64,000 nt of DNA from Mesostigma viride (taxonomy: Eukaryota > Streptophyta > Mesostigmatophyceae > Mesostigmatales > Mesostigmataceae), in NCBI GenBank assembly GCA_009746045.1, contig RPFO01000978.1:1-64000 (forward strand). Direction: 5' to 3'. The notes under the pieces were generated by a model that was given only the letters and a program-made list of their open reading frames with translations, was not told the DNA's origin and searched no databases. Made by a program: the position numbers and the translations under genes. Below are positions 18,690 through 54,211 of this stretch, in pieces. Positions within the stretch are counted from its first letter, which is position 1, and every line of letters begins with the position of its first letter.

Positions 18690-18737
<48 letters not shown>

Positions 18738-27006: not shown

Positions 27007-27010
27007 AGGG

Positions 27011-27310: not shown

Positions 27311-30300
27311 TCACACTTTCGAGGGCCTCTTCCGTAATTTCGCTTCCGCGATCTGCTGTTCCGTTTTCGAGTTCCTCCTCTTCTTATCGATCTCCTTTGC
27401 AGGCGCCCAGACTTCCACATCCTTCCAGCTCTTGCCATCCGTCAGCTTTACCACCTTCATCGCGTAGTCCAGCGGCATCCACCACAACTTGTTCTTCAAC
27501 TTCCCTCCCTTCTCCCCCTCAGCGAAAAACTTAAATGCGACGTCCCTCCACTTGGTGTCGTATCCAGACACCTGCCCATAAAGCATGACGTCTTCTAGCT
27601 TGGCATACATTGGCGTAGCCGTATCCTTGTTCCCTGCTTGCATAATGGCTAAAGTCCACCCATCACACCAAAAGGCCTCTGGTGCTCCGAACCCCATTTC
27701 CCCGTCCATAAGTCTCATTTCCAACGTGGGCTTGTCATCATCCTCATCGCCCGCCTGACTGTCTTCCGCCCCCTTAGGCTCCTCCCGTCCGGAAGTGTCA
27801 GCATGTACAGCCGCTGGTCCGAAGCCCACCGCCACATTAGCCAAGCGAAGTAACTGCTCCACATCCTCATTACCTGCGAGCAAACCGATCATGCCATCAA
27901 CGCATGACTAAAATCGAGTTAGTAGAAATCGGACTGCCAACCGTGAAAAATCAAAACACTCTACATACCAGAATTCACTCGCAGATTTTTTCTTACCCTT
28001 TTTGGCCTTTTCCTTCGACCTCTGCTCGCAGGTAGACCCCGTCTGGGGGTGGGGGGCAGGCGCCGGGGCGGGTTTGGCGGGCTCGGCAACCTTGGCAGTC
28101 TTCGCGGTCTTGGGTAACTTCTTGGAAGCAACGCGCTCCTTTCCCCCGTCCTCCTCCTCTCCGCCGCCATCCTCCTCCTCCTTCTCCTCCTCATCGTCCG
28201 AATCTGAAAGCACAACTGCTTTTCGACGCCGTTTCTGAGGCAGGGCAGGCTTGGGAGGCTTCCCCACCTTGGCCGATTTCTTGGAAGCAACGTGCTCCGC
28301 AGCCTTCCCACCCTTGGCGGATTTCTTGGTAGCAACGTGCTGCTCCTCCTCCTCCTCCTCCTCCTCCTCCCCCTCCTCCTCCTCAGCATCGTCGTCCTCC
28401 TCCTCCTCCTCCTCCTCAGCATCGTCGTCCGAATCAGCCACTGCCACAACTGGCTTACGAAGCTGCTTCTTCGGTACCTGAGAAATGGCCAGAGTCGGCG
28501 GGGGAACCCGAAGCTGCTTCTTCGGTACCTGAGAACTGGGCAGAGGCGCCGGGGTGGGCAGAGTCGGCGGGGGAACCCGAAGCTGCTTCTTCGGAACCTG
28601 AAAAACGGGCTGCGACGCGGCAGGCTTGGAAGGCCCACCTCCATCATCCTCAACAAGTGACACGACTGCCCGTCGAGTCACTTGAGAAGCGGGCTTCTTC
28701 GCCGCAGGCGGATCCGAATCACCTTCAGGCCCCGTCATCTGTTCGGCCTGCTGCGTTCTGACCTCGACGGGGGTCTCTCCGCGGTTAGACCCTCCTGCCG
28801 GACCTCCATCCCCTCCATCCCCTCCCTCCAACAACTGTTGGTCATCCCTCTCCACCACGGCGGACGATCCCCCAGCTTCGTGGGAAGCTTTTCGCTTCTT
28901 CGCCCTTCCGAGCCTAGGCCCCCCATCACCTTCCCCCTGTTCAAGCCGCTCCCACAATTCACTCCCTTTCCCGATCCTTTCCACTATCTCTTGAAACCCC
29001 TTAATCTCCGTCTCGGTACCAAACACGATCACCATCGGTTCGAACCTGGAGAAAAAGTCGTGGGCGCAAGCCTTCAGCACATTATCGTACATCCCGCCCG
29101 GTTGGGGAATGTCCGAAGCTTCGGGCAAGGACCGAACGCCCACCACCTGGACTGAAAGTTACTCCACTTATCACCCCAAATGTTCGCCAAGTTCAGCAGG
29201 CTCAGGCACGGAAGGGACCTGCCCAAGGGAAAGGGGCGGGCTGAAGCTGAGGCAACCTCGCCTGCCACCTGCTTGACGAGCGACTTGTCATCATCATCAC
29301 CGTCTAGTAACTGACAGCAAAACCAGACCCGGCGACGGCCCCAGTCCACACTCTGCCACTCATACTTCACGTCCCACTCCTCCTCCTCCTTCGCCTCCGT
29401 CTCCTTCCCCTTCCCCTTCCCCTTCGATCCCTTCTCCAGCCCCTTCACCGGCCCCTTCATCGCCGCCTCCTTCACCCCCCCTTCGAGTAATCCAACTTTT
29501 GGAGCGTACTTCCTGAACGCTTCCGGAGCAAAAAGTGCCAAACCCACCGTCTTGTCCTCGCTCTCTTTTAGCAGAATCTCCTGAAAGTCGATCTTGCCAT
29601 TACTGATATCCTTTCTCGGAATCCTCAGATGTGCGGCGTGTTTTTTGGCTTTAAGAAGGTAGGCGATGTTCCTCGTTATGATGACGGCCACATCCCAAAA
29701 TTCCCGGTATCTGGCCACAATCTCCTTCCTGCCGACCGGCCGAGCGAGAGGATGGAGATTGAAGACGAGTTCGAAAATATGAGACGCCACAAACTCCTTG
29801 CCATTTGCGTCCTTGCATCGCGCTTCCAGCGTCACATCCTCCTTGAATCTGGCGCAAATGGTCAGCCGCAGGCACTCCAGCACATCCTTGGCGATCTCCA
29901 CCAACTTGGTGAGCTTTTCCGGTCCAACCTGGCAGCTCATGATGCAATCGATCACGGCGTCCATCATAGGAAGGCTGGCCAAGTTCCTGAAAGAAGTCCA
30001 AGAGACCTTCTGGCCTTTCTTCTCCCCCTCTGCATTGGCGAATTTGCACCTTTGCATCATCACCTCCTCAGGCGCGGGTTTCGTTGAGGCAGGATCATCA
30101 GTCTGCTCCTGTGTCAGACGGAGAAACGTGTTGGCCAGCGTGCGACTGTAAGCGGAATGCACTGAAGCAATGCTGTGGGCCGGCTTTTTCTTTCCTTCTG
30201 CTTCCTCCTCGTGTACATCCACCGCTGCCGGCTCCACATTCCCTTCCCTTCCCCCCGCTTGCCGCATAGCCGGGAGGATGTACGTGAGCAGATTGGTGTA

Positions 30301-33300
30301 GTGGCCATCCGCAATATAGTGGCCCTTCCCACGCGTGACTTTGCCGTATAGATATAGCTTGTTGTAGTTCCACACGTCAAGCAACGCCTGGCCCAGCGTA
30401 CGATCCGCCACGGCTAAGTCCTCCGAATTCGCCCCCTTGGCGATGTCGAACAGCTTCTCCAGCTTGCCGGTCAGCACCGCCTGCGACATCAATTAACATC
30501 GAGCGAGCAACGACAAAACTCAGTCATAAAAGGCGAGGGGTATAGCTGCGGATAGACCCTAACAAAATTCGAAAAAGAAACGGCCGACAATACGCAACGA
30601 AAATTCCAACAAAAAAAAGGAGAGGGTCTAGCTGCAGCGAGACCCTCGCAAAAAACTTGAAGCGCACACAAAAAACAACCACGAAAATTCCGAGGGTCTA
30701 CCCGCAGCTAGACCCTGCCAAAATAGATAGCTTACATCTTCTTTTGCCTTAGGTAGATTTCGCAGCTCACTCCACGACGGGAGCAGGTCGCCACCCTTGA
30801 GAAGAATGACGTTCGTACCCATGTAACCACCACGGAATTTCCGCAACAGGTCCTGGAAGGCGTGCTCCGCCTCCTTAGGAGTACTTGCGAAATTGGACTC
30901 CGCCCCACCCTCGCACATCATTGCCCGAACCTCTCCCCACCCGCCATCCGGCCCCCTGAGAAACGACTTTAACCCCTTAAAGTAGTGGTTCCCATCCACC
31001 ACCGCGTACCGGAGAACCAGATACGGTACCGGTACCCGTTCCTCAAAAAATTTCGGATCGTAGGACTTCATCGCAGTATTGCACAGCAGGTTGAAAACTT
31101 GCCGACTGCCCTCGATCTCCTGAGGCAAAACTGCGGCCACCTCGTCCACCTGGCGTAGGTACGCCACTCAAGTCCTCTCGCGAGGAAAGAGGTGGTGGAC
31201 TCCGTGTTAAGCCACACGTCGACTTCAGTATCCGAAAGGGGCCGGAAGTACCTGGACCCCACATCCTCCGCGTCAATCTTGGCGCCGTGGTAATGCTTCA
31301 GCCACTTGACGAAATCCGGCATGCACAAGATTTGCTTGTCGAACAGGTCAGGTTGAGATTCGGCAAGCGCCTGGAAAGGGAACTGCCAGACCGGGACAAC
31401 AACCTTGAAGTGCAAGGCGTTGTCCCGCGCATTGAGGAGAATGCGGGCGTTCTCCTTAATGGTTTCAAGGTTTAAACGCCGCTGCCTCAAAGCCTCTGGC
31501 AAAATAAGCGCGTTGACCGTCTGGATCCGCATACTGAAACATCCGGTCTGCTGAAAATCGGCCGGCCGAATCCAACGCGTTTCCCTGAGAGAATTGGCCT
31601 TCCGGATGTTCTGGTCCCTGACCTCCTTGTTCGAGTCGACCTTTTTCGAAGGCTTCCAGCTTTCAATGATAGGGTCGGTGTCCGGGTTCCCACTGCTCGT
31701 GAGCACCCCCTCCTTAAAAAGCTTGTTGAGTGACCGGAGCAGCTCAAGAAAGGGGGAGAACTCGGGCCAGTTTGGCAGGTCATCGACGTCCGCCATCCGC
31801 CTACTCGAGCAGTACTTGAGCATATCCTTCACCAGCGCGAACACGGCGTCATGACCAGGTAACTTCTTCTCCACCGTGGCGTCTTCGTCCCCCCCGTCAT
31901 CCTGAAGTAAAAAATCGAAAAGGACCGCAGGATTTGCTCAAGTCAGTAATCTTTAGGCCGACCACGACATCCTGTTCAGGGACGAACAAAGTTCTGTTGG
32001 AATAGTACCTTACTGACACTAAACACCAAGTCCCGCAGCCGGTCAGCGTCTACCCGCAGCGAGAGGTCTAAATTTTCACAACAATCGTACCTGTCCAGTT
32101 TTCTGCTGCTTCTTGGCCTCCTTAGCCTTCTCCTTCTCCGCCTTCTTCGCCTCCTTCTCCGCCGCCTTCGCCTCCGCGTTCTTCTTACTGTTGGCCTTTG
32201 CCACCGCATTCAGCGCCCTTTTTCCCTCAGCGGCCCGACGACGAAAATCAGCCTTCATGAATTTCTCGATCTTGTCAACCTTTGCCTCTGAGTACTCCTT
32301 AGGCTGCCACTTGAAATTCTTGGTGGCTTTCGACTTCACCAGATTTGCGAATTCATATGCCAATTCACTCTTAAAGGTAGCGTCACCCAACACCTCCGTA
32401 TCGAAATCGGCATCGACTTCCGCCTCAAGTCGTGTCAGGTACTTGCGAAACTCGGACCCCGCAGGTCCCTCCGAATCGACGCCATCGGGCGGAGACTTAA
32501 GCATGATCAGGCCAACAGCAATAATATGATCCTTCGCAACCTTCTTGCGGGAATCCAGCTTTTCCCTTTCATGCTGTCAATGGGGCTTCGCCGCCTTCCC
32601 CCCCGCAGTACCCCCAGCGACAGCCCCCGCCTGCATGACAAAAAAAAACGAACAAGAAGGGACTTGACCTCAGTTCGATTGTTGCACCATCGTCTCTCTG
32701 CGGAGATACCCCTCAGCACGAAAAAAATCACACGAACTCGCGGCGGATGAACGTACCTGCACAGCCACTTCTCCCTCAGCGTCTCCCCCATCCTCATCTC
32801 CTCCAGCGTTTTCATCCCCCCCATCCTCATCTCCTCCAGCGTTTTCTTCCTCTCCGGCAGCGCCTGCTGAGGCCAAACCCCCCGCCTGTCAACACCGAAT
32901 ACGACAGCTCATTGGAAATCAAAATTAGTCGACATTTGTATATTTCGCATAATGCGCTCACTAAAACTTCAGGCGAAATGCAGACATCCGGATATCGTTT
33001 AATGCTTACCATTTCCATCTCGAGTCCAGACCAAATACCAGCACTGTCAACAGCCATCGCCGCAGCCGCCCCCTGAAAAAAGACAACAGATTGGTTGGGG
33101 GCACCGTTGAAATTAGCCGAACATGTCAGTCTCAATAAAAGGGTGAGGGTCTACCTGCAGCTAGACCCCATGTAAGATGCTCGTGGAAACTCGACGGACA
33201 AGCACCCACCTTATCAACCAAGTCTGACAAATTAGGTAAATCCTCCGATACGTCCCCTGGCATGGAGCCCCCCTGCATGATATGACAGGACAAACCATGA

Positions 33301-35811
33301 AGGTTGGTCAGCATATAGAGCCCTATTCAGGGAATGGAAACAACCCAAATCGATAAACGATATCGGCAAGTTAACGTACCGAAACGTAGAACTTCCACCT
33401 CCTCAAAATCTTCCCCAAAGGCCATATCGGCACTTGATGGGCTCTCTCCTTTTCCAGTTGCCGCCTCAATTCCGCCTCGAAGAACAACTCGAGGGACTGC
33501 CAATGGCCTCCCGCCTCTAAATCAGACCACTCCGTGTCTGTCTTGGTTCGGATACTCTGGAGACAATCAACCAACGAGATTTGATCCAACCATTCCTGGA
33601 CGACTTCCCGGTATGGCTTATATGTCTGAATAACATGGAAGTCCTCCCGGTGCCGGAAACTTTGGATCACCTGTCCAGCCCAATCCAAAAAGAAAGCGAC
33701 CGCTTCCCGCGAAAGGCTGGCGTCCGGGCTGACAAGAAAGTCAGTCCGCCACTTAACAAAAGATTGCAGTAAGTGGTCTCTTGCCATGTCCAAATGCGCG
33801 ATCACTTCATGTGCGCGCTCCTCCAATCCTCCTACGTCATTCATTCTTCCCGGCACAATTACGATATAGTCACTGTTGGACGTGTCAACAAATCCTTGCC
33901 TGACAATATCAAACACTTCATCTTCCGACAGTGAAGCCCTCGAATCCGCTCTCATATCTCCAGTCATGAGTTTAAAGAGCTGATGCAACGCAGTGGTTTT
34001 CAAGGTTTCCATATAGGAAGCCTCGATGCATGTGAAGCCAATGTGGACCTCGAACTTTTCAACCTCATCAAAGAGCGTCGACCATATTAAAGCACGACGG
34101 GGAAAGTAACGTCCGACATCCTCCTTCAGATTAAGGATGCACGACTGCGCGATCTTCAAAACCTCATACATGTCGTCACCAACGACCCTCTTCCCATGAA
34201 TGGCTCGCTGTGTGGCTTCGAACAATGCAAGACGGCCCAGGCGGTCGTTCTTCCAAATTATGTGTGCCGACTCCGGACGGTCCACGACGACACCGGACTT
34301 CTCTGCAAACGCTATCTCGGCCGAAAGAAAGCGGATCAAGCCTCTCAAGCCCTTTTCGGCTTTACGACTCACCCCAGCTCAGACTCAGTCTGAGCCAGGT
34401 ACTGTTTCAGAATGGCCACCGTGGAGGGCTGCAGACAACAAGAGTAAAAAAAAGGCCACACATCGTCGTCGTCGTCAACAACCTTAACTCCTAGGTCAAC
34501 GTCTCTCCGCAGCTAGACCCTTACGATCAATGTATGACATAAAATCCCACCCTTTCTACGATACACACACGCCGTTCAAGCCATCTGAAAAATGTACGTC
34601 TCACATTAATAAACATACCTGATAATCGACTGAAAATCCTTCGTGAAGAAGGGGTGGGCTCCCGTTCTCGTCCTTCTCCCCCTCAACTGCCTTCGCAGCC
34701 TCCTCCTCCTTCCTCGCAGCCTCCTCCATCTTCCTCGCGGCCTCTTCCGCCTTCATCCTCTCCTGTCGCATCTGCAAAAAAAGAGCGGCCTCCTCCGCAA
34801 GAATTCCTTCGCTGCCGCCTCCGTCTTCTTCTTCGCCTCCTCCTTCTGCTTCGCCACCAGGATCCTGTGCTCCTTCTCCTGGGCAGCCTTTTTCTCCTTG
34901 TACTCCCTCTCCTCCTCCTCCCTCTCCGCCTTCTCCAGCCTCTCCTTCTCCTCCCTCTCCACCCTCTCCCTCTCCGCCTTCTCGATGGCCTCCCTCTCCG
35001 CCTTCTCCTTCTCCTTGTCCTTCTTGTCGAGAGCCGCGTATTCGTCAGCAAAGCTTGCGGCCATTGCTAACAAATCGGACAACCGCTTCTGACGCGACTC
35101 CCGAACCGGCGATTCCGGGTCTTCAGGCCTCCCGTTAGTCTGATCGCGCTCGTCCTCCTCAACAAGCTCACTGATAGACTTCCTCAGCTTCCTGAGCTCT
35201 TTGGTGCGGTCGTCTTCCTCTACCCACTCGGCCGCAGGCTTACGCTTAGAACTGGAATGCTTGGGGGACGGCGAGCGGGACGCAGCAGCGGGGGACTTGG
35301 GTGGCGGCGAGCGGGACTTGGGGGAAGCAGAGCGGGACGGCGAGCGGGACGCAGTTGCGGGGTTCTTGGTTGACGGCGAGGGGGACTTGCGAGAAGGAGA
35401 GCGGGACGCGGTAGCGGGGGGAACTTTGGGCGGAGAGGGGGACTTGCGGTTCGGCGAACGGGTCGCAGTTGCGGGGGACTTGGGGGACTTGCGGGGCGGC
35501 GAGCGGGACGCAGTAGCTCCGGCCGACTTGGGGGGCGGCGATGGAGACTTACGGGGCGGAGAGCGGGACGGAGCGCGAGACGCAGCAGCGAGAGGGTTGG
35601 GGGGTATAATTCTGTCCAACTCGCTGGGGGGCAAGTTGGACTTGGAGGGCGAGGGGACTCGGTGGGGGGGACCTCGCAAGATCTTTTACGGGACCGAACT
35701 GCAACGGAGGAAACTCCTCCGTTGCCGTTCGGTCCGGCGAGGTGTTCGACGTCATCTTGGGTGAAACGGGAGTGGCCTTGACAGAATCGGAATAGGAGGA
35801 CGACATCTGCA
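27311..35811 (-). CDS. Nine-exon gene of unknown function in the DNA transposon
   Basis: Exons (minus): 35811-34619, 34429-33380, 33272-33210, 33072-33010, 32885-32757, 32630-32091, 31901-30736, 30480-27969, 27873-27311, all bounded by GT and AG. It starts MSSSYSDSVKATPVSPK. An RS-type domain comes next, about ten repeats of the form ASRSPxRKSPSP, then a long Glu/Lys/Arg coiled-coil. Exon 2 is helical; exon 5 repeats ENAGGDEDGGD; exons 7-8 look globular (LPNWPEFSPFLELLRSLNKL; IASVHSAYSRTLANTFLRL). The end of exon 8 is very acidic with PKKQLRVPPPT repeats. Frame breaks at 35665 (G7), 34795 (A7), 34375, 32570, 31165 and 29155 are mostly near homopolymers. RS repeats and acidic/basic tracts suggest a nuclear protein. 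It could be more than one gene; no enzyme motif is recognised. Confidence 0.6.
30536..30716. repeat. Three palindromes in intron 7 of the unknown gene
   Basis: Copies at about 30538, 30625 and 30692 have the form GGGTCT-N10-AGACCC with CTGCAG or a variant core. Four of the eight introns of this gene carry at least one copy (others near 32045, 33147 and 34500). No copy falls in an exon. Confidence 0.8.
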
Positions 35812-35883
35812 GAACAATATCAAAAAAGCAAGTTTCACAAATGTCATTCAGAATCTGAATCGCCGGCAGAAAAACGATGGGGA

Positions 35884-36345
35884 GGGTCTCGCTGCAGCTA
35901 GACCCTTTCGTGGATTCTAAAAGGGACATTTAGTTTAATGCAAAACTTTGGCGTCTCGCTGCAGCGAGACCCTCACTTCAAGCAAAAACAAATCATTTTT
36001 AGGGTGAGCGAAAACAAGCAACCTCCCATCATGCAAACATAAAAAAGTATACATTCCTTGGGGTCTCGCTGCAGCGAGACCCTAACGTCAAACAAAAACA
36101 AATAATTTTTAGGGTGAGCGAAGAAAGCCCCTCCCATCTTGCAAACATTAAAAGTCGACATTCGTAGGGGTCTCGCTGCAGCGAGACCCTAACACCGATA
36201 CAAAAACAAATCATTTTAAGGGTGAGAAAAGAAAGACCCCCCATCATGAAAACATGAAAAATTGACATTCCTTGGGGTCTCGCTGCAGCGAGACCCTACG
36301 TCAATACAAAAACAAAATTCCGAGGGTCTACCCGCAGCGAGACCC
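35884..36345. repeat. Promoter-proximal palindrome array (about 107-bp period)
   Basis: Six 22-bp palindromes start at 35884, 35951, 36061, 36168, 36275 and 36324. Three are perfect: GGGTCTCG, CTGCAG, CGAGACCC. From 35951 the spacing is about 107 bp because the intervening sequence (AAACAAAAACAAAT, then GGGTGAG) is also repeated. The array sits just upstream of the unknown minus-strand gene, so it may be its promoter/5' leader or a transposase-binding region. Confidence 0.85.
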
Positions 36346-36359
36346 TTACGACCACGTAT

Positions 36360-36895
36360 AAATACATGTGGGGGGGGAAGCTACGTATAAATACATGTGG
36401 GGGGGGATGCTATGTATAAATGCATGTGGGGGGGTGCTGGCATTAATAATTAAATGTGGGGGGTGATGGCATGAATAAATAAATGTGGGGGGGTGCTGCC
36501 ATGAATAAAAGAATGTGGGGGTGTGATGGCATGAATAAATGAATGTTGGGGGGTGCTGGCATTAATAATTAAATGTGGGGGGGTGATGGCATGAATAAAT
36601 AAATGTGGGGGGGTGCTGCCATGAATAAAAGAATGTGGGGGTGTGATGGCATGAATAAATAAATGTGGGGGGTGCTGCCATGAATAAAAGAATGTGGGGG
36701 GTGATGGCATGAATAAATAAATGTGGGGGGTGCTGCCATGAATAAAAGAATGTGGGGGGTGATGGCATGAATAAATAAATGTGGGGGGTGCTGCCATGAA
36801 TAAAAGAATGTGGGGGGTGATGGCATGAATAAATGAATGTGGGGGGTGCTGGCATTAATATTAAATGTGGGGGTGTGATGGCATGAATAAATAAA
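36360..36895 (+). repeat. Satellite array with G-run on the plus strand
   Basis: About 18 units of 28-31 bp each carry ATGTGGGGGG followed by TGCTG or TGATGG and a TGAATAAA segment. Two unit types alternate (TGCTGCCATGAATAAAAGA and TGATGGCATGAATAAATAA), forming a higher-order dimer. Open frames through it are artefacts. Confidence 0.85.
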
Positions 36896-39050
36896 TGATA
36901 CGTAGCATCACCCCCCACATGTATTGATACGTAGCATCACCCCCCACATGTATTGATACGTAGCATCACCCCCCACATGTATTAATACGTAGCATCCCCC
37001 CCCAACTGTATTGATACGTAGCAGCACCCCCCCACATGTATTGATACGTAGCAGCCCCCCCCACATGTATTGATACGTAGCAGCACCCCCCAACTGTATT
37101 GATACGTAGCAGCACCCCCCCACATGTATTGATACGTAGCAGCACCCCCCCACATGTATTGATACGTAGCAGCACCCCCCCACATGTATTGATACGTAGC
37201 AGCACCCCCCCACATGTATTGATACGTAGCAGCACCCCCCCACATGTATTGATACGTAGCAGCACCCCCCACATGTATTGATACGTAGCAGCACCCCCCA
37301 CATGTATTGATACGTAGCATCACCCCCCCACATGTATTGATACGTAGCATCCCCCCCCACTGTATTGATACGTAGCAGCACCCCCCCACATGTATTGATA
37401 CGTAGCAGCACCCCCCACATGTATTGATACGTAGCAGCACCCCCCCACATGTATTGATACGTAGCAGCACCCCCACATGTATTGATACGTAGCAGCACCC
37501 CCCCACATGTATTGATACGTAGCAGCACCCCCCCACATGTATTGATACGTAGCAGCACCCCCCCACATGTATTGATACGTAGCAGCACCCCCCCACATGT
37601 ATTGATACGTAGCAGCACCCCCCACATGTATTGATACGTAGCAGCACCCCCCCACTGTATTGATACGTAGCAGCCCCCCCCACATGTATTGATACGTAGC
37701 AGCACCCCCCCACATGTATTGATACGTAGCATCCCCCCCACATGTATTGATACGTAGCAGCACCCCCCACATGTATTGATACGTAGCAGCACCCCCCACA
37801 TGTATTGATACGTAGCATCCCCCCCCACATGTATTGATACGTAGCAGCACCCCCCCACATGTATTGATACGTAGCAGCACCCCCCACATGTATTGATACG
37901 TAGCACCCCCCCACATGTATTGATACGTAGCAGCACCCCCCACATGTATTGATACGTAGCAGCACCGCCCCACATGTATTGATACGTAGCAGCCCCCCCA
38001 CATGTATTGATACGTAGCAGCACCCCCCCACATGTATTGATACGTAGCAGCACCCCCCCACATGTATTGATACGTAGCAGCACCCCCCCACATGTATTGA
38101 TACGTAGCATCACCCCCCCACGTGTATTGATACGTAGCAGCACCCCCCCACATGTATTGATACGTAGCAGCACCCCCCCACATGTATTGATACGTAGCAG
38201 CACCCCCCACATGTATTGATACGTAGCAGCACCCCCCCACATGTATTGATACGTAGCACCCCCCCACATGTATTGATACGTAGCAGCACCCCCCCACATG
38301 TATTGATACGTAGCAGCACCCCCCACATGTATTGATACGTAGCAGCACCCCCCCACATGTATTGATACGTAGCAGCACCCCCCCACATGTATTGATACGT
38401 AGCAGCACCCCCCCACATGTATTGATACGTAGCAGCACCCCCCCACATGTATTGATACGTAGCAGCACCCCCCACATGTATTGATACGTAGCAGCACCCC
38501 CCCACATGTATTGATACGTAGCAGCCCCCCCACATGTATTGATACGTAGCAGCACCCCCCCACATGTATTGATACGTAGCACCCCCCCACATGTATTGAT
38601 ACGTAGCACCCCCCCACATGTATTGATACGTAGCAGCACCCCCCACATGTATTGATACGTAGCAGCACCCCCCACATGTATTGATACGTAGCAGCACCCC
38701 CCACATGTATTGATACGTAGCACCCCCCCACATGTATTGATACGTAGCAGCACCCCCCCACATGTATTGATACGTAGCAGCACCCCCCACATGTATTGAT
38801 ACGTAGCAGCCCCCCCCACATGTATTGATACGTAGCAGCACCCCCCCACATGTATTGATACGTAGCAGCACCCCCCCACATGTATTGATACGTAGCAGCA
38901 CCCCCCCACATGTATTGATACGTAGCACCCCCCCACGTGTATTGATACGTAGCAGCACCCCCCCACATGTATTGATACGTAGCAGCACCCCCCCACATGT
39001 ATTGATACGTAGCAGCACCCCCCCACATGTATTGATACGTAGCAGCACAA
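36896..39050 (+). repeat. 30-bp satellite array, about 70 copies, C-run on the plus strand
   Basis: The unit reads GATACGTAGCAGCA, C6-8, ACATGTATT, about 30 bp. It holds two palindromes (TACGTA, ACATGT), and length varies mainly in the C-run. Because the neighbouring array has the G-run on the same strand, the two arrays face each other with CCCCCCACAT opposite ATGTGGGGGG. Long open frames in all registers (up to 706 codons) are repeat artefacts. Confidence 0.92.
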
Positions 39051-39775
39051 TTTTAGTCAGCCTACCATCCACGTTGCGGCAAAAGATCACCTTTTTTTGT
39101 GTTTCGGCAAAATGAAGATTTCTTGCAAACTATCGTTATGCAGGCAGGTAGCAACGTCCGATGTTATAATCCGGCAGGTAGCATGCAAACGTCGAAACGA
39201 TATGAAGGGGAAAAAAAGCATCAAACAGGAGCACCGATTAGAAACGCAGCAAATGCAGTATGTGCACATCTACACCTATAACCTAACCAGACCAAAGGCA
39301 TAGCAAACATGGAAAGGGTGACCCAAGTGAAAGCCTAGCACCACCATGATCGACATGTGCGAGACCAAGAAACGCTCCATGGCAACTAGACTAAAGGGAT
39401 GGATGCCAGATGTGGATTAGGATCGGCTTAGCTGACTCTACCGAGATGTCTGCAGGGTTTAGCTAGCAACGAAAAGAAGGAAGCCAGACATTTTTATCAC
39501 TCTTGCTGCAACATAGAGTTTCTTGCGATGGCAGCAAGGACATGTCTTCGCCCAGCTGGCTAACTGTGTCGTCGGCGTGCATGCGCTGTTTAGTTGCCGT
39601 TTTTGATAGAACAATTTTAGTCAGCCTACCATCCAGGATGCGGCAAAAGCTCACCTTTTTTTCGTTGTGCGGCGAAAGCAGACCGATTTCCTTGTAAACT
39701 TCCGGCACCAGGCAGGTATCAACGTAGGATTTTATAATCCAGCAGGTAGCATGCAAACGTCGAAACGATATGGCA
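39046..39775 (+). repeat. Diverged direct repeat of about 165 bp
   Basis: The segment 39046-39213 (ACAATTTTAGTCAGCCTACC through GCATGCAAACGTCGAAACGA) recurs at 39609-39775 with about 75-85 percent identity by eye. The 400 bp between them shows no gene. It marks the right shoulder of the satellite block. Confidence 0.75.
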
Positions 39776-40594
39776 GCTCGTATCAGCTATGGGGTCTCTC
39801 TGCGGCTGCGCTTCTTTTTCGATGGGCGATGGGACGGTCGCAATTCGCAAAACGGACGCGGCGTCACAGGGCTGAACGGTATTGAAAAAATTGGAAACGT
39901 GGCATCCTCGTTCCTCCCCACGGAACTGAAAACTGGAAGCGCGGCGCTGGTGCAAAAGCTCGATCCCATCTTTTGGAACCAAGCTAGCGGATTGGACGAC
40001 ATCCAATATGCCGTCACCCGTGCTTGTGGCCGCAGGTATAAAAAGAGACGACCTCCAGCCCATTTACCTGGGAACATTCGGATGTTTGGCTGACATCGTT
40101 ACCATGCGTCAATGTACAATGAGGTTCTGGGTTCGATTCCTGGTGTGGTCATGGAAATAAATTTTTTTCTGCACATCTACTGAAATCAGTCATAGCACCA
40201 AACAATCACGCTGCAGCGAGACGCTATAGCCCTGGAGGCCGCTGATAAACCTGACATCCGGTACGTCTTACTATCATAGATTGCCGAACTATATAATAAT
40301 AATAGTCTATACCACTTTTTCTTGTAAATGATTTACTAAATAATGATTCTATATACTTTAACATACCATATTATTAAAGTATGTGGAATTTAACCATGCT
40401 ATTCACAATATATTATAAAATCTTTTGCAAAATATACTGTAATTAGTATATATATTTTCTGATAAACAATTTTATCAATGCTACTGTGTTATTTTTGTTA
40501 TTCTCGCCATGCAGGTATCTGAGTGTTCTGGGAGAACTAATAAGAGAATGAGCCGCGAAGGTGAGGAAAACCTGAAATCTTTTCGTCCTTATTG
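39776..40594. other. Non-coding transposon DNA with an AT-rich tract
   Basis: Positions 40270-40505 are extremely AT-rich with TATATAT-like runs, a likely easily melted or promoter-flanking region. A degenerate palindrome is at about 40205. A B-box-like GGTTCGATTCC lies at about 40129, but no full tRNA can be folded there. No ORF is supported. Confidence 0.55.
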
Positions 40595-40852
40595 GGGTCT
40601 CTCTGCAGCTAGACCATTTATAACCACAAGCAATAGCTTAAATTCAAGGGTCTCGCTGCAGCTAGACCCTCTTTATGGTTGCTATAAAATTAATGAATCA
40701 GAAGTCTGTGATTTAACAATCGCACGCCGCAATGAAGGGTCTAGCTGCAGCGAGACCCCAATCTTGGTCGGGGTATGCTAAGTTCACCACATCAGGTAAT
40801 CTTTTCGTCTAACGGAAAAAGCCCCTCTAAGGGTCTAGCTGCAGCTAGACCC
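40595..40852. repeat. Palindrome cluster upstream of the transposase gene
   Basis: Four palindromes (40595, 40648, 40737, 40831), each GGGTCT-N10-AGACC, lie in the 270 bp before ATG 40868. They mirror the cluster at 35884-36345 in front of the divergent gene, which suggests shared regulation or binding by an element protein. Confidence 0.85.
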
Positions 40853-40867
40853 CAATCGTGGTAAAAA

Positions 40868-43800
40868 ATGATACACTTTCGAACTTTGTCTGTAATTGTC
40901 GCTTTTCCCAACGATACTCGATTTGCATGGATTTCGTTGTGCCGGTCGTCATGGCATGCAGCACGCGAACGGGTGGGAGTTTTCGCCCTTGCGTCCGGTC
41001 GTCCAGGATTCAGTGCAATTAAGTTGAACACCGGGACGAAGCAGTCAACTGGCGCAAAAAGGGTTTTCGGAGATGAGAACCAGAATCCAGCGCAGCCTGA
41101 AGCCAAGGAAGTCAAGCGGCCGGGAGAATACTCGAAATCAAAGAGGGTTATTGGGGAATATTTCGCTGACCAGGCGTTTGAAGCGGCTCAGGCGATGACA
41201 AAACCCGAGGGGCGGGGGCCGGCTTTCGACCAGATGATTGCTGGCTTTAACTCTAGGGCCGCTGAACTAGGTCACGGGAAGTATCATGAGGAGGCGAAAA
41301 AGCTTTACAATCAGGAGCGGATGGCAGAACTGAACAGGTTCTGGGTGGCTCGGATTAACGGCTTTTTTGATGGTCTGACCAAAAGCGACGCAGACAGAGA
41401 CGTCAGGATGGTGCTGATGTCCACGCTTTACTGTGGTGACGACTTGGAGAAGGAGTTTTCGGCCGCGGAGTTGGAGAACCTGACGGGGATGGACGCCAAG
41501 AAGATTCGCGGAATTCGCGCGATACGAAGGCAGCAGAAGTTGGACTACCTCAGACACGCGCAGGCTCGCAAGGGGCGCCCTTTGCCGCAATTCGTGATTG
41601 ACGCGATAGTGGACGCGTGGATGCACGATGATGAGTCGCGCGCCTCCTCCCAGATGAAGGATGTCAAGCGCACTTACAGCAGGGAGGGTCGTGGCAATCA
41701 CGGGGTGCTCGTCGCCGTTGAGGGAGCGCGCTATTACATGACCTCCAAGGAGGACATGTACAATCACTTTCTCGAAAAGCATGCGTACTGGAACAAAAGG
41801 AGTAACCAGTATGATAAGGACGTGGGCATTCACGTGGGCTACACGACCTTCTGCAAATACGCGCCCGATTGCATCAAGGGCAAGTGGAAGGAGAGGAACC
41901 TGTGCGCGTGTGAGAAGCACGTCACCATGCAGTCGGCCATGGGGGCGTGGACCAAGCACTCCAATGCGAACCACGGCAAGAACTGCAAGTGTGGCGCGGA
42001 GTGTGCGGGATGCTCCAAGTACAGAGAGCCGGACGGTACTTGCGGAATGTGGAAAGCCATTCACTCGACGGACTGGATCAAGCACTTTCACTGCCCGGTG
42101 TCCGCCGAGACTGACGGCAGGGATAACGGGCTGCGTGAAGGGGGCGGAATGGGCGGGGGGATGGAAGAGGGGGAGGGGGAAGATGAATGGCGGGGACGGG
42201 ACCTGGAAGACCTCGACATTTCTGAGAGGCTGGTGGAGGACGAAGATGGGGTGCCGAGGACGGAGAGGGTTCACCGCATACTGAAGATGGCGTGTGTGGA
42301 GGGGTTCTGTCCTGAGGAATCATGCGGCATCCATAATAACTGGGTGCAGTGTGATCGGGACAAGAATTCCACGGAGATTCTGAATTGGTTCAAGTTCGAG
42401 ATGGTGGAGCAGACTGTGACCCGACGGGTGAATGTGAGTTGGTTTCGATTTTATTTCTCCGTTAATATGTTGTTGACTTTTTTTTTTGTGACCTATAGCT
42501 GCAGCGAGACCCTTTGTGAGTTGCAGTTATCTTATCGAAATGCGATTTTATTGCAAATCGAAACTGTCTGCGGACCTTTGCGAAACAGGGCGAGACCGAT
42601 GGCAGGGCGGCGAAGAAGGTGAAGCGGCCCGAGCAAGTCCAAATGAGGTCCACCCCAGCTGAGCTGCGGGACGAGATTCTTAAGATGTGGGACAAGTTCA
42701 CCGTGCACTGCTTTACGGCCTGGTCGCAGGCGGATACAATCAAGGATCGGGAGAAGAATCTGAGAGAGGGGGACGTGCTCGTGCACGGCGACTGGGCCGA
42801 GAACTACGAGAACAGCAGCTACGTCCAACTGCAGTCGCAGTACTTCCACAAGCGCAGCCACATCCTGATGCCCATGATCGTGCGTTATCGGCTCAACGGC
42901 GAGCTGGAAAAGCGCGTCTTCTTTTTCCTGGGGGATTCCAGTATCAAGCGGGGCGAGCGCGCACTCGTATACGCTCTTCGCAAGATTCTGGAAACCCTGC
43001 GGGTAGAAGTAGGGGTAGAGGTGCGAAACCTGTACATGTGCTCGGACAACTGCGCGGTGCAGTTTAAGTCCAGGTACGTGATTAACCAGATTAACGGTCT
43101 GCTCATGGGGGATCCCGACCTGCAGGCCTTTGAGTTCCACTACATGGGGGAGCAGCATGGGAAGGGGGAGGTGGATGGTCAAGGAGCGAAGTGCAAGTGC
43201 GTCTTGAGGGAAATGCAGAGGATTCCCGAAAACCAGCACATACTTGAGACCCACCAGCTAGTCGCCTACTTGAACCAGAACTGGCAGGGCGGCAAGACAT
43301 CGAGCAGGGAGTCGGCCCGCGCGCGGGCCGAGAACGTCACTCGCCACTTCTTCCTTTTACCCCCGGTACGGAATTTTGTGTTATTTCAGGTTTTAAGACG
43401 TCAACTGCCGCTGTTCTATAAAAATTCAAACCCAATAAAGGTATCTCTGCAGAGAGACCCTATATACTGTCATGGGTTGCTTTTCTTTTAGGTATGAAAT
43501 TTCGCTTGTTCTTTCGGTATGAAGGGGTCTCTCTGCAGCTATACCCTGTGTCGAATTTCGATCACTTGATATCTTGTCGTACGTTGTTATTATGATTCGA
43601 ATGGGGTCTCTCTGCAGCTATACCCTGTGTCGAATTTGATCACTTGATATCTTGTCGTACGTTGTTATTATGATTCGAATGGGGTCTCTCTGCAGCTATA
43701 CCCTGTGTCGAATTTTGATCACTTGATGTCTTGTCGTTAATTTTTTTTTAAGGGGTCTCTCTGCAGCTATACCCTGTTTTATTGGTTTTTGGTCAATTTT

Positions 43801-44591
43801 GCTAATTTGAACGGTATTCTTTTTGTCCTAACTATTTGATGACAGGACGTCGAGTCCGGCCGACGCGCGGAGGTGAGGAGGTGCCTGGCATCAAGAAGGC
43901 GCATTGGTGGCGACTGGACAAGTCCGACCCTGGCCTTTTGATGATTAGGCGCTATTCCTGCTACTGTCCGCCCTGTTTGGCTGGGCGGTTTGAGGGATGT
44001 CTAAGCGAGTGGTCGTTTATCATCGAGTTCAATGATGCAGGAAGCTCGATGAAAACTGTCCGTTTGCTGCCACCGAGCCAGCCCAACCCTCCGGTTCGCA
44101 TGGTGACGCGGGGGGAGCAGCTGAAGGACAAGCGGGAGGCGATGGGCCGGCAGATGAGACTCCACGACTATGTGGCAGTTCCATCGGACAAGGACACGGA
44201 TCACGATCCCATCCACCCGTTCTGGTTGGCTGAGGTTGTAAGCGAAGCCGGGCCGATCGTGTTAGACGAGAACTTCGAGAGGTGGGTCGAGGGCCGGAAC
44301 GGACGGGAGAAGGAGCTGTTCCTCGCCGGGAACGGCATTCTTCCCGTTCGGATTTGGAAGCGGGATAAGCATGACCCCCTGCATTTCACGCTCAACGTTG
44401 AGGATTGGCCACCGTCACGCCAGCCCGAGCTTGTGAATTGCTATCTCTGCGTCGCTCCGGCTCTCCGGCTAGAAGCACGCGTGCGCAGCGACGGAATGTG
44501 TGCCGACATCAGGATGAGCAAGGAGCTCGACAAGTGGCTTACTACGCTGGTGATCAAGGATGAAGCCCCGGAGGGGCCGGCACCGACTTAA
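40868..44591 (+). CDS. DDE/D-type transposase of the 19.3-kb DNA transposon
   Basis: Exons 40868-42433, 42589-43365 and 43846-44591, with GT-AG introns. The N-terminal half has a basic lead-in and a Cys/His-rich region (CKYAPDCIKG, CACEKH, CKCGAECAGCSKY, then CVEGFCPEESCG), likely zinc-binding. Exon 2 has the catalytic-like core: VHGDWAENYENSS, MCSDNCAVQFKSRY and EQHGKGEVDGQGAKCK, giving acidic residues spaced as in RNase H-fold transposases. The HGKGxxDGxG motif is, from memory, shared with a widespread uncharacterised family of animal and protist proteins. Exon 3 (KKAHWWRLDKSDPGLLMIRR; CYCPPCLAG) is a C-terminal extension. The exon 2/3 phase is off by one, perhaps an indel in the C-run at 43361. 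Superfamily not assigned. Confidence 0.72.
43524..43774 (+). repeat. Intronic tandem repeat built on the palindrome
   Basis: In the second transposase intron a unit of 78-79 bp starting GGGGTCTCTCTGCAGCTATA repeats at 43524, 43603 and 43681, with a partial fourth at 43752. Here the right arm is TATACCC instead of AGACCC, so this is a sub-variant amplified locally. Confidence 0.85.
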
Positions 44592-45415
44592 AAACAAGAA
44601 ATTGGGGTCTCGCTGCGGGTAGACGACGCCCTAGTTTCGGCTCGTATTATATCTTTAGAGTGGGGCTTCAGTAGGGTGTAAAAAGGTGGCCGCATATATT
44701 GTATATATTTTTCGAGATCTTTCTGTGGTCAAGTTTAAGGGTAGTTGATAATTTTTTGCGGCCTTCAATTAACAGTTATTTTTTACTGCAACATAATTTT
44801 ATGCTGTATATTTAAATAATGATAAGGATTTCGATATTTTTTTGCACAATCTATTCGACATTTGTTTCTGCATGTCGAGAATTTATTGCTCCACCCCCAC
44901 AAAAAAAATCGTTCCGGAACTGTTCGAAGCGAATAGCACTGACAGGATTCGAACCCGGGTCCACATTAATGTTCGGAGTGAGGTAGGCCAGCCATCATGT
45001 TCCGCACTGAAATCTGGCTCGGGTCCGATCCCTTCCATTGCTCTTCGCTTCGAACAGCTCCGGAACAAGTTAGGTTTGGGGTTGGAGCAATAAATACTTA
45101 TTTGCCGGGCGCAGTTGTCATTCCGCCTAGTACAATTGCGTCACTAGTACAATTTTTGTCTGGGTACGGTACGAACCAATAACGCAATATTTAGTATCTA
45201 ATCGCCGCTGCTCTTGCTGAATTTTATCCGGAAGCTGAAACAGGTGTCCGGTGAAGCGAATACTAGTGACTGGTGGTCGTGCCCTTCCATTACTCCTTAT
45301 CGACAAATTTTGGGTTCTACCTGCAGTTATAACCCTTGCGCGTCTGGCTGTCGGGGTCACCAATTTCCTGTCGATTGCAAGCAGCCAACCTTGCCGAAAT
45401 TTAACACTGTCACAA
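44592..45415. repeat. Non-coding DNA with a 220-bp inverted-repeat unit (44881-45099)
   Basis: Arms at 44881-44938 and 45039-45099 pair over most of their length (ATTTATTGCTCCA against TGGAGCAATAAAT at the edges; GTTCGAAGCGAA inside). The loop has a tRNA-like B box (GGTTCGAATCC on the minus strand). This could be a small MITE or a tRNA-derived SINE fragment within the transposon. A palindrome variant lies at 44606 and another at about 45309. Confidence 0.55.
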
Positions 45416-45853
45416 ATGGAGCAGAGCAATATTTTCGGTTCTCAGCATACCTATGTGATGGTCGACAAAAATGAGCACGCTGCAAACATCAGAATTGATG
45501 TAGAGTTGCTCGGACCTTCTGCACAGTGGGGTGCAGGTGTCATTGCGTTCGGCAATGGCATGATCGATCTGGTGCCACCCGATTCAGATTTGAACCCTGC
45601 TTACCAATGCGTGCCTGACAATCAGGCGAGAGTGGTGGTGGAGAGCACGGAAATTCCGGGCTCTCCCAATGTATCAATGATGCGCCTGAGGGCCGAGGCC
45701 CAGCAGGAGTTCCTGGCTGCTGCGGAGAACGGCGGGGCCAAGTGGAACACCAAAATGTATACAGGCGAGCCTCCCAACTACAGGGGAGACCAGTACCAGG
45801 GAGTGTACTCCTTCGGCGATTTTGACATCGACGGATGGGGCACCTTTTTCTAG
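45416..45853 (+). CDS. Small ORF of unknown function in the DNA transposon
   Basis: ATG 45416 gives 145 residues starting MEQSNIFGSQHTYVMVDKNE and ending GDFDIDGWGTFF. It is mildly acidic, without membrane segment or known motif. The same frame is open back to 45251, but that part contains a palindrome copy (45309), which elsewhere is confined to non-coding DNA, so 45416 is the likelier start. It lies between the transposase and the right TIR and may be a capsid-like or accessory product; no family recognised. Confidence 0.45.
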   Translation: MEQSNIFGSQHTYVMVDKNEHAANIRIDVELLGPSAQWGAGVIAFGNGMIDLVPPDSDLNPAYQCVPDNQARVVVESTEIPGSPNVSMMRLRAEAQQEFLAAAENGGAKWNTKMYTGEPPNYRGDQYQGVYSFGDFDIDGWGTFF

Positions 45854-46238
45854 GCGCAATGCCTAAGTTGTCAAATACTCCGACAATGTCAAAATTGCGA
45901 ATGATAAAATTACGGACATGTGCACATATATGTACTGATTCAATAAAAAATTTCGGCAATTTTGTTCCCGGCATTGATAATCAAAAGCTGCTAGCAAGCC
46001 AAGGACTTCAAAAGTGGCAATAGATCGATGTAGGTCGTCGATAAACTTGTCTAGTCGTCATATTTCGGTCGCAAAATTCGTGCGTGGCCTGCAGGCATCG
46101 GACAAAGTGCACGCAACAGCAGGAGTCGGTTGAGTTCGAAGCACGGCAGACACAAAATTTCGGCGCAAAGTCCGTCGGGCAAAAAATTCGCTCGGCTGCC
46201 AAATTTTCGGCAAGAATTTCGGCGCAATGTCCGGTTTT
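45854..46238. other. Right subterminal region of the DNA transposon
   Basis: No gene. Short motifs of the form AAATTTCGGCGCAA recur (about 46155, 46200, 46215), as often seen in subterminal transposase-binding regions. A related GCGC/AATTTGGCG motif occurs near the left end at about 27100. Confidence 0.5.
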
Positions 46239-46301
46239 CGGACGATTGAAATTAGCGTTTTTTTCTTGCAAAAATCTACCCCATTCCGCGTGGGACCACC
46301 C
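46239..46301 (-). repeat. Right terminal inverted repeat of the DNA transposon
   Basis: It is the reverse complement of 27011-27082, with a deletion of about 9 bp relative to the left copy. The outer base (46301) is followed by TSD AGGG at 46302-46305. Confidence 0.9.
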
Positions 46302-48126
46302 AGGGGCCCAGGAACATGGGACGAAGCTTAGTCTTCAGCTCCTTCTCCACCTTGTGTGAGAATCGTCCGATCTGTGGGCCCTCCACCAGGACCCAATCGC
46401 CCACCTCAATGGACGGCGCCCGGTTATCCCGCTTGCCGGCTGTCCTCTCCAGATACCGCTCGGTCGCGGCGCGATAGCCCTGGACTGCACTGTTATGAGC
46501 CTGGTGCATCCGCTGCAGCAAGCGATCAACCCCTTGGCGTGTGTCCAGCTTGACCTGATCCTCTCCCCGTCCGGGGCTCATAAGCAGGTCGGGAGGCGTG
46601 AGAGGGTGCCTGCCAGAGTTGAGGAAAAAGGGGGTAAATCCGTGGGCGGCCTGGGGAGCATTGTTCAGGGAGAATTCCACCAAGCCCAGAAGTTCCTCCC
46701 AATTGCTGCCCACCGCGTCGGTGTAGTGTCGCATGGTCTCTTGCACTGTACGGTTCAACCGCTCCACCAGATGTGACGACGAACTGTGGTAGGCCGTGCC
46801 CAGCGACACCTTGGTGCCCAGTCGTTCGAAAAACTCCTGCCAGAATTTGGCCGTGAAGAGCTTGTCGCGGTCGGAGATGAACTGTCGGCTGAGCCCGTGG
46901 AACCGGAACACGTGCGTCAGGTATATCTTGGCGCACTCCTCCGCAGTGAGGTCGGCAGGACACGGGGCCAAGTGACACATGCGCGTCAGGCGGTCCACGA
47001 ACACCAAGACCATGCTGTTGCCGCTCTTCGCCTTCTTGAACGGGCCGATGAAGTCCATCATGATAGAATCCCAAGGACCCATCGGATCAGGTAACGTCTT
47101 GGGGACGGCTTGCGAACCCGTGTTCCTGGACTTCATGATCTGGCACGAGGGGCACTGGCGCACATATGTCTCGATATACTCCTTCATCCCTGGCCAGTAG
47201 AAATGCTTGCGGGCCCGAGGATAAAGACGGTGGCTTCCCTGATGTCCGCCTAGAAGCGAATCGTGGAGCTCGTGAAGCAAGGCGGCCCTACAAAGCTCCG
47301 GGACATACAGCCGCCATTCCTCCGGCTGGATGCTCACGAACAGGCGTCCATCCTGGAACTTGCAAGGGTAGGCACCCATCTGCTGGGGATGCGCCCGGAT
47401 GGCTTCAAGCGCCGCTTCCTCCGTGACCGTGAAACGACTGATCATCGTCTCCAGGTCCGACGTGACTGTGAACGCGTCCGCGGCCGGTTCTGTCTCCGCG
47501 CTCGCCTGGTTGACGAATTCGGAGAAGACTGTGGGCGGGCCGATCGGCTGAAGCTGAAAAATTCCCTGGGGCGGCACCACATGACTAAGGGGCATGCGCA
47601 TATGCGATCCCTCCCCCTCTCCGGGGGCGTCCACGTCCTCGTGGGCACTCGTCTCCTCCAAGAGAGGTGACAAGTCATCGCTGGTGGTGTGTCCCAGATG
47701 AAACAGGTGGCGGGCCCGGGGAGACCGTGGCTCCGCGCCGTAGGCGGTCCCCGGGGCGGCCACTGGTACGCAAGTGGTATGAAGCACATCCATGTCCTCG
47801 TAGAACCAATAGTCCGCCCGTCGCGAAAGGGCGTCTGGCACCACGTTGTCCGCGCCCTTGACGTATTGGATCTTGAATGGCGCAAACTGTGACAAGTACT
47901 CCATCCACCGCGCTTGGCGGGGCGTCAGGTTGGGCTGCACCAGGAGGTGGGTGAGCGGCCGGTGGTCGGTGTGGATCACCAGGCGGTGGGGGTCGAGATC
48001 CCCCTGCTCACTAATGGCCACCGAAAACTGGGCCCCCAGAAGATGATGACGCCACGTGTGGCAGCTGTAGACTACTGCCAGAAGCTCCTGCTGATGCACT
48101 GGGTAATTCCGCTCCGCCGGAATCAT
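46302..48126 (-). CDS. int: Chromovirus RNase H end and integrase, truncated by the DNA transposon
   Basis: The frame starts in RNase H (HTDHRPLTHLL, VKGADNVVPDALSRR), then has the integrase HHCC zinc site (HDSLLGGHQGSHR; CPSCQ), the DDE core (MMDFIGPFKKAKSG; ISDRDKLFTAKFW; LVERLNRTVQ) and the SH3-like tail (VGDWVLVEGPQIG). Just before the 46301 junction it reads KLRPMFLGP, and the natural continuation YKVLTKF is found at 27006. The open frame ends at 46276 in transposon DNA. The usual HPQTDGQ before the catalytic Glu is YHSSSSHLVE, an oddity. Confidence 0.9.
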
Positions 48127-54206: not shown

Positions 54207-54211
54207 CTGAG

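Follow-up and report, generated by a model that had tools for sequence, protein, structure and literature searches.

Palindromic sites mark a Mesostigma viride DNA transposon and its gene-less relatives and suggest recognition by the transposon's own protein

Given that a single DNA transposon of Mesostigma viride carries about 25 copies of one 22-bp palindrome, we asked what purpose these copies might serve. An earlier note on the 64,000-nucleotide stretch analysed here (the window) had listed them and offered three roles: a binding site for a transposase or regulator, a hairpin acting in splicing or silencing, or a micro-repeat spreading within the element. All 25 listed palindromes matched sites within about 4 bases, and two further sites, at 32690 and 28771, raised the total to 27. 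The pattern GGGTCT-N10-AGACCC, allowing ≤2 mismatches, occurred 22 times in the window against 3.8 expected, a number reached by none of 100 shuffles. A matrix built from the sites themselves scored 26 places at ≥21 bits and the 27th, at 40203, at 15.5; this site and the one at 32046 are degenerate. The best score in the 44.7 kb of window DNA outside 27011-46301 was 6.6 bits.

The element that holds the sites is an autonomous-looking DNA transposon (27011-46301) lying within a Ty3/gypsy pol ORF, with TIRs beginning GGGTGGTCCCACGCGGAATGGGGT and a 4-bp target duplication, AGGG. Its ends were placed at the limits of homology with copies A and B at both ends and with copy C at the left end. MITE copies share part of the left TIR and subterminal part (27011-27083, plus strand) and are about 94% identical to the right one (46171-46301, minus strand). 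The TIR, beginning GGGTGGTCCCACGCGG with few changes, was found at both ends of the window element, of copies A and B and of eight MITE copies, and its genome-wide places numbered 237 + 233 compared with 0 for the control. The target duplication, read by eye, measured 4 bp in all 11 insertions with both flanks (window, A, B and the eight MITEs). In its TIRs and its fixed-length target duplication, the element has the properties of a cut-and-paste TIR DNA transposon. Mutator target duplications, by comparison, are 9 bp long. The element does not look like a member of the Mutator-like VANDAL group: there was no match to a Mutator-like transposase, the duplications are of 4 bp rather than 9 bp, and the VANDAL motif YAGTATTAY does not occur in the window (0 against 0.8 expected).

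The transposase gene lies on the plus strand and comprises an open frame taken as exon 1 (40868-42433), exon 2 (42595-43365) and exon 3 (43845-44591); a small plus-strand gene of 145 aa follows at 45416-45853. Exon 1 is 52% and the small gene 59% identical in a sister subfamily (subfamily 2, as opposed to subfamily 1 of the window). The large minus-strand gene or genes (27311-35806) combine parts conserved between the subfamilies with fast-diverging ones (26% identity at 33371-34378 and 35% at 34785-35685), and minisatellites of 29/58 bp and 30 bp occupy 36358-39048 between the divergent genes. Ten element ORFs gave no Pfam match above the curated cut-off, and the three transposase exons matched no Pfam family at E up to 1, Mutator-like transposase included. 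A low-confidence model of exon 2 (pLDDT 56) has an order of strands and helices that fits an RNase H-like fold, and its Foldseek matches, all weak, include viral terminase nuclease, RNase H, Argonaute and SETMAR; a single-sequence model of partial exon 1, all-helical (pLDDT 58), was not used. Protein searches returned only two relatives for exon 2, one of them labelled Prorocentrum lima, and none for a copia piece, while solved structures searched by sequence yielded one match only (E 0.47).

One intron of the minus-strand gene holds three sites (30538, 30624 and 30694; 30538-30715), and further intron sites lie at 32046-32067, 32690-32711, 33147-33168 and 34499-34520. Six sites (35884, 35951, 36061, 36168, 36275 and 36324; 35884-36345), partly in a 107-bp tandem repeat, lie upstream of this gene, and five (40203, 40595, 40648, 40737 and 40831; 40203-40852) precede the transposase gene. 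Transposase intron 1 contains a site whose left half is degenerate (42491-42512) and intron 2 contains five (43439, 43525, 43604, 43682 and 43753; 43439-43774), four of them in a 78-bp tandem repeat; one more lies just past the transposase stop codon (44605-44626) and another upstream of the small gene (45313-45334). The sites nearest to the element's ends are 967 and 1760 bp away, and most are in the central promoters and introns. Multiplication is by local tandem duplication, with units of 107, 78, 58 and 57/120 bp. The earlier statement that no copy falls in a predicted exon did not hold: the site at 28771-28792, with centre CCGCGG and unchanged in 4/4 copies compared, falls in a 416-aa ORF (27908-29158, minus strand), and it counts against a marking of non-coding DNA only. 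Overall, one of 21 independent sites overlaps coding sequence, which by an ORF-based estimate makes up 54% of the element.

Subsequently, we scanned the 440-Mb genome, as the earlier note had proposed, and found GGGTCTNNCTGCAGNNAGACCC at 3699 places with ≤2 mismatches, whereas the reversed control gave 2. The listed exact places, 50 in all from contig C1 and part of C2, comprised 17 in MITE copies, 33 in long copies and 0 outside either, three of the 33 (C1:760378-760561) having been assigned via identical sequence and spacing. At ≤4 mismatches, no site was detected in roughly 76.7 kb of DNA from the window and flanks that lies outside the elements. The palindrome is dense in element copies, and equal density was not seen in the other DNA examined; the claim that it never occurs outside the element stands for the window, but elsewhere in the genome non-autonomous relatives carry it. 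One such relative, a 584-bp MITE with the element's TIRs, has two sites, at positions 133 and 359, and another, a 10.3-kb element sharing the TIRs, has 21 sites in mirror-image arrays and, in the 10.0 kb read, no recognisable transposase exons. At distances of 132 and about 204 bp from the MITE's two ends, these positions would also suit a role in transposition. The 226-bp pairs had been considered as part of a retrotransposon and were reassigned to MITEs that share the element's TIRs. Copy B contains two insertions of 1.7 kb with a weakly similar palindrome; these were set aside, having TTAA-type ends and no resemblance to the element's TIRs. Matches to transposase exons in the genome numbered at least 122 for subfamily 1 and at least 65 for subfamily 2.

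Alignment of copies revealed that the sites are conserved beyond their surroundings, with 9 changes in 2222 aligned bases versus 473 in 29,174 for the flanks (p=4e-7), about four times fewer, a site common to the overlapping rows L002 and L003 being counted once. At 30 loci around the transposase, which are best matches and hence nearly identical by choice, sites showed 0 changes in 4597 bases versus 27 in 21,208 for other non-coding DNA (p=0.009); only stretches of ≥85% identity in 51 columns were counted, which drops misaligned parts of L031, L039 and L048 and of locus ends. Across seven MITE copies (L005, with an internal insert, and the damaged L012 omitted), 0 of 44 site columns and 34 of all 587 columns were variable. 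We also compared copies for the presence of individual sites, a further check proposed earlier, and every site was found in every copy with an alignable stretch. All four sites of the 78-bp repeat were present at 28 of the 30 loci; L031 has lost one unit, leaving three, and L039 and L048 have no sites beyond 43582 and 42496 because homology to the element ends there.

In the sister subfamily, of which one copy was read at length, the transposase exon is 68% identical and palindromes occur in homologous non-coding intervals, five of the eight tested no longer being alignable. Arrays precede both divergent genes in both subfamilies, and two subfamily-2 copies have arrays of 14 and 6 sites. Nearly all sites in the copy read at length have changed at one position: half-site position 6 was G or A in 45 of 48 cases, versus T in 41 of 42 for subfamily 1 (p=6.5e-17), in a count whose sites were partly picked by eye. 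When the core was made neutral at positions 5-8, the corresponding figures, tandem copies included, were A or G in 51 of 54 and T in 42 of 42. Nine homologous non-coding intervals were each tested in both subfamilies; in 17 of these 18 tests, ≤6 of 300 shuffles matched the best place for the neutral core, and the sole exception (61/300) was the window's 31938-32089, with the degenerate site at 32046. Because 20 sites placed randomly in non-coding DNA fill all nine intervals in 5% of trials, full occupancy is weak evidence for one subfamily alone. The subfamily-2 motif had 879 genomic places versus 0 for the control. Among the places and exons listed, 52 of 76 exact subfamily-2 places had a subfamily-2 exon within 30 kb and 1 had a subfamily-1 exon nearby, while 0 of 50 exact subfamily-1 places lay near a subfamily-2 exon. 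The 23 subfamily-2 places near no exon among those listed include L056; over the 6 kb read, this locus belongs to a subfamily-2 copy, and its transposase part would fall beyond that stretch.

Since each subfamily has its own site version and the other DNA examined holds no site, the palindromes are probably binding sites of a factor encoded by the element. Left and right halves vary independently, with 186 of 242 base pairs symmetrical against 184.6 expected after the halves were shuffled, and each palindrome acts as two independent half-sites. This independence, along with a conserved intron version that forms no hairpin, fits a dimeric DNA-binding protein better than an RNA structure. Sequence evidence supports the first of the three roles originally offered, a transposase or regulator binding site, and speaks against the other two. 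A hairpin of RNA or DNA working in splicing or small-RNA silencing is the least probable reading: perfect copies do fold well as RNA (-16.9 kcal/mol), but two of the four versions folded give no stem, including the intron version GGGTCTCTCTGCAGCTATACCC, which is present four times and folds at only -1.9 kcal/mol, and MITEs without introns carry sites. A functionless selfish micro-repeat jumping inside the element is very improbable as well. The local tandem multiplication, the subfamily-2 arrays and the 1 of 30 loci with three 78-bp units would agree with it, but all alignable copies share the sites, and, tandem arrays and truncations apart, no single site was found that one aligned copy has and another lacks. 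The conservation above flanks and the coordinated change between subfamilies also speak against it.

Capture by the element of sites for a host DNA-binding protein is improbable, given that every exact place listed on C1 and part of C2 lies in element or MITE copies (three by spacing), that the remaining window DNA scores so low, and that the motif differs between two subfamilies of the same genome. It is rather unlikely that the element encodes a transcription factor whose sole task is to turn on its two promoters; this would explain the arrays before both divergent genes, but not the sites in introns, in gene-less derivatives and past the stop codon of the transposase. Better placed among these alternatives, though still doubtful, is a transposase or accessory protein that assembles the two ends, with internal copies as transposition enhancers. 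Gene-less derivatives, needing only to move, keep the sites, and those of the MITE are subterminal; against this, the sites of the long element are mostly central and distant from its ends, and end assembly does not call for sites in introns.

We favour the reading in which the palindromes bind the transposon family's own dimeric protein with anti-silencing as the main role, a statement that, taken whole, we consider an even call. An element-encoded dimeric protein would bind the palindromes, and the bound dimer, as in VANC systems, would counter silencing by the host, maintaining the non-coding DNA of the element in an open, transcribed state. Such a role would lead to sites in promoters, introns and gene-less derivatives, with coding sequence nearly free of them. 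CpG content is only suggestive of lowered methylation in site-bearing copies: observed/expected values were about 0.9-1.0 in both elements versus 0.15-0.20 in three copia-like elements of the window, but the window's gypsy pol is likewise rich in CpG (0.90). The 10.3-kb element had a value of 0.78, and that of the MITE (1.65, L005 included) accompanies a high GpC of 1.43. The excess of CpG transitions in young copies (11/15,670 versus 11/43,850) was too slight to weigh, and given how young the copies are, CpG content can reflect only the history of the lineage.

The VANDAL elements of Arabidopsis provide a known case of sequence-specific anti-silencing in which the motifs evolve alongside the element. 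In maize, TnpA binds repeated short motifs, the 12-bp subterminal repeats of Spm, and assembles the two ends, whereas the sites described here are palindromic and occupy internal promoters and introns. In kind, the 584-bp MITE and the 10.3-kb element, the latter with mirror-image arrays, resemble MITE and Foldback-like derivatives of DNA transposons, but both bear the marking site, which is numerous in the 10.3-kb element. No comparable anti-silencing case outside plants was found among the literature matches listed, which is not proof of absence in print. The target of VANC21 is a short motif located in introns and in intergenic and terminal non-coding DNA; it expands as tandem repeats, and related elements have different versions of it (PMC5735166). 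The VANDALs are plant elements of the Mutator-like kind, with the motif YAGTATTAY arrayed in one orientation (PMC5735166, PMC10398659), and VANC motifs are not described as palindromic, a word absent from PMC5735166. As in that system, the present short motif occurs in many copies, mainly in non-coding DNA, dense in one element family and rare elsewhere (PMC5735166, PMC10398659); it likewise grows by tandem repetition and differs between related elements. The likeness is one of sequence pattern, and the present element differs in being an unclassified TIR transposon with 4-bp duplications, transposase exons that lack a Pfam match, a 22-bp two-fold symmetric site and no YAGTATTAY in the window. 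According to PMC10398659, TnpA of Spm/En is element-encoded and its action accompanies the element's demethylation and activation, and MURA of maize MuDR lowers methylation of non-autonomous relatives in trans by acting on their TIRs. MURA thereby parallels the present case as an element protein able to act on non-autonomous relatives, but the passages on MuDR (PMC10398659) mention no dispersed internal sites such as those found here.

Collectively, the element and its gene-less relatives are both marked by the sites. Target motifs that shift with the element are the signature of self-recognition systems such as VANC/VANDAL anti-silencing in Arabidopsis, and our findings suggest binding sites through which a protein of the transposon recognises, and probably activates, the transposon's DNA. 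More tentatively, and at less than even confidence, this may be an independently evolved form of anti-silencing or self-recognition, in which a transposon unlike VANDALs would use palindromes bound by its own dimeric protein to tag its non-coding DNA, along with the non-coding DNA of gene-less passengers, and sister families sharing a nucleus would have split into separate codes through a coordinated change at one half-site position. Two sister families in one genome offer a natural experiment on how dozens of scattered target sites and the protein that binds them would change specificity together, and the site provides a simple mark for finding gene-less relatives not yet recognised.

Homology between the window and three other genomic copies, A (L013-L015), B (L016-L018) and C (L020-L022), placed the left limit of the DNA transposon at 27011, a match from 27001 in C being chance similarity, and copies A and B, whose right end was fetched, placed the right limit at 46301. 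Both ends start with GGGTGGTCCCACGCGGAATGGGGT. Direct repeats of 4 bp, read by eye, flank 11 of 11 insertions. The repeat is AGGG for the window copy, CTAA for A and CCCT for B, and each of eight copies of a gene-less relative (MITE) has a different one. The window copy lies in an ORF named by eye as Ty3/gypsy pol (46310-50757 and 26645-27160), which has what appears by eye to be a chromodomain-like end. Open frames, from which exon limits were estimated, outline a plus-strand transposase gene (40868-42433, 42595-43365 and 43845-44591), a small plus-strand gene (45416-45853) and one or more large minus-strand genes (27311-35806); the genes of the two strands diverge around a 2.7-kb minisatellite block. 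None of 10 scanned element ORFs reached the Pfam cut-off, and the three transposase exons and the small gene gave no Pfam match up to E 1. In a low-confidence predicted model, the structural elements of transposase exon 2 follow the order found in an RNase H fold, and the nearest named outside relative of this exon is a protein with the label Prorocentrum lima (45%, covering 40% of exon 2). Copy B additionally contains two 1.7-kb insertions of one transposon with TTAA-type ends, 97% alike (12240-13975 and 22035-23765 of the reversed joined stretch).

The element carries 27 sites of a 22-bp palindrome, GGGTCT-N10-AGACCC, and its confinement to the element held within the window, no site being found beyond 27011-46301. 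The half-site derived from 25 sites is R-G-G-G-T-M-T-M-B-C-Y-G, where positions 5 and 7 are either A or C and position 10 is either C or T; T4, T6, C9 and G11 are invariant, which is partly circular because the set was chosen by similarity. The earlier note had every site outside exons: 20 of 21 independent sites are indeed clear of coding sequence, and the one at 28771 touches it. With 54% of the element coding by our own estimate, one coding site in 21 has a probability of about 2e-6 under random placement. Site arrays precede both divergent genes, and on a loose count all nine non-coding intervals hold at least one site; since random placement of 20 sites fills all nine in 5% of trials, this coverage counts only together with the sister subfamily described below.

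Sites are also conserved. Between the window and copies A, B, C, D (L019) and one further copy (L001-L003), 9 of 2222 aligned site bases changed versus 473 of 29,174 in the 150-bp flanks (p = 4e-7, approximate because neighbouring flanks overlap and the copies are related), and seven of the nine changes fall at half-site positions 1, 5, 7 or 8, already variable among sites. At 30 loci in the transposase region, nearly identical to one another and filtered of badly aligned stretches, changes numbered 0 in 4597 site bases, 27 in 21,208 other non-coding bases and 25 in 85,378 coding bases. A hairpin, as the earlier note had proposed, is disfavoured: left and right halves vary independently (186 of 242 symmetrical pairs versus 184.6 after shuffling, P = 0.40), and an intron version found four times cannot fold. 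Judged from the sequences, an RNA stem would not leave such a half-site pattern, whereas it would be expected from a homodimer that reads each half separately.

The genome-wide scan bore out the palindrome, returning 3699 sites at up to two mismatches versus 2 for the reversed pattern. Among 50 listed places with exact sites (C1 and part of C2), 33 lie in long copies and 17 in MITE copies, the three at C1:760378-760561 having been assigned by spacing. The 584-bp MITE has about 131 bp of the element's right end and 62 bp of its left end in common and carries two sites, at positions 133 and 359. One MITE (L009, 1361-1946) sits inside another long copy, at the equivalent of window 45665-45668, with a clean 4-bp duplication; a damaged one adjoins a telomere-like tandem array of AACCCTG/GCACCCT-like units (L012, just left of 1101). 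Exact TIR matches some 10.3 kb apart bound a further element (C80:300152-310463), and TIR pairs at this distance also occur on C36, C280, C335 and C429 among the matches listed. In the 10.0 kb read of it (L055), none of the transposase exons gave a blastn match, but remnants of the minus-strand gene are retained. With half-site positions 5-8 left free it holds 21 sites (one at 1505, eleven at 2101-2720 and nine at 7131-7630) and, at 7071, a further one that is degenerate; its two arrays mirror one another, each adjoining a 30-bp minisatellite. That gene-less passengers keep or enlarge the site set speaks for a DNA site that would act in cis and be recognised in trans.

Transposase exon 2 matched at least 122 places of the window element's subfamily (subfamily 1) and at least 65 of a sister, subfamily 2, at 68% identity. 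For subfamily 2, the sequence read comprised 20 kb of one copy (L054+L053) and 6 kb of a second (L056). The first copy holds 35 sites of equal length, mostly with unchanged centre and ends; its array counts 14 sites versus 6 in L056. Half-site position 6 is A or G in 45 of 48 cases (24 independent sites) versus T in 41 of 42 in subfamily 1 (p = 6.5e-17). Because site choice could bias this count, it was repeated with positions 5-8 free and tandem copies included, giving T in 42/42 for the window element, A or G in 51/54 for subfamily 2 and T in 42/42 for L055. When the best place in each of nine homologous non-coding intervals was compared with 300 dinucleotide shuffles, at most 6 shuffles were as good in 17 of 18 tests; in window interval 31938-32089 the best place was not outstanding (61/300). 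With sites removed, five of eight tested intervals align between subfamilies no better than 50 shuffles, and 32577-33370, 34379-34784 and 44592-45415 align modestly better; the ninth interval has one 68% match at 39987-40139. Among the exons listed, 52 of 76 exact subfamily-2 sites lie within 30 kb of a subfamily-2 exon (the same contig, on short contigs), one near a subfamily-1 exon and 23 near neither, and none of the 50 listed subfamily-1 places is near a subfamily-2 exon. Beyond the right end of one subfamily-1 copy, at a distance of about 22 bp, there is a subfamily-2 site (G000:C557:423695), possibly a nested insertion. Site arrays in both subfamilies and in the 10.3-kb element adjoin a 30-bp minisatellite that is rich in G on one strand and has differing unit sequences (window 36358-39048; L054 about 8585 to L053 1158; L055 2837-3918 and 5894-7013). 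In the minus-strand protein, two parts show 26% and 35% identity between subfamilies versus 49-62% for most others (one other stretch 38%, a short one 36%); we guess that these fast-diverged parts are a candidate specificity part.

The best parallel, by analogy, is VANC21. This protein binds the motif YAGTATTAY in VANDAL21, both in introns and in intergenic and terminal non-coding DNA; the motif multiplies by tandem repetition and varies among related elements, and VANC causes methylation loss throughout the element (PMC5735166, PMC10398659); TnpA of Spm and MURA of MuDR are likewise element proteins linked to methylation loss (PMC10398659). The window system shares anatomical and evolutionary features with these. 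However, the element differs from VANDAL in transposase family, duplication length and motif, and membership was rejected on these grounds.

CpG content bears on silencing. The window contains three copia-like elements (3577-7661, 14930-19448 and 54116-58273), one of which has an intact ORF of 1385 aa. Their CpG observed/expected ratio is just 0.15-0.20 and TpG+CpA is in excess, as should be seen if transposons undergo methylation and decay here; this points to a long history of methylation-driven decay in the host. The two halves of the window element score 0.94 and 1.01, subfamily 2 scores 0.88 and 1.00, L055 0.78 and the MITE 1.65, but with GpC at 1.43. The values are 0.90 for gypsy pol, 0.68 for gag and 0.57-0.76 for the flanks of copies. 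By these values the element lineage was spared the decay of CpG, which is what anti-silencing predicts; but gypsy pol was spared too, and another cause may explain the element's CpG retention. We infer that an element-encoded binding protein exists and, by analogy with VANC21, that it may act against silencing: this predicted protein would recognise the sites in trans, gene-less passengers included, and counter their silencing, which would class the site system as element-encoded self-recognition.
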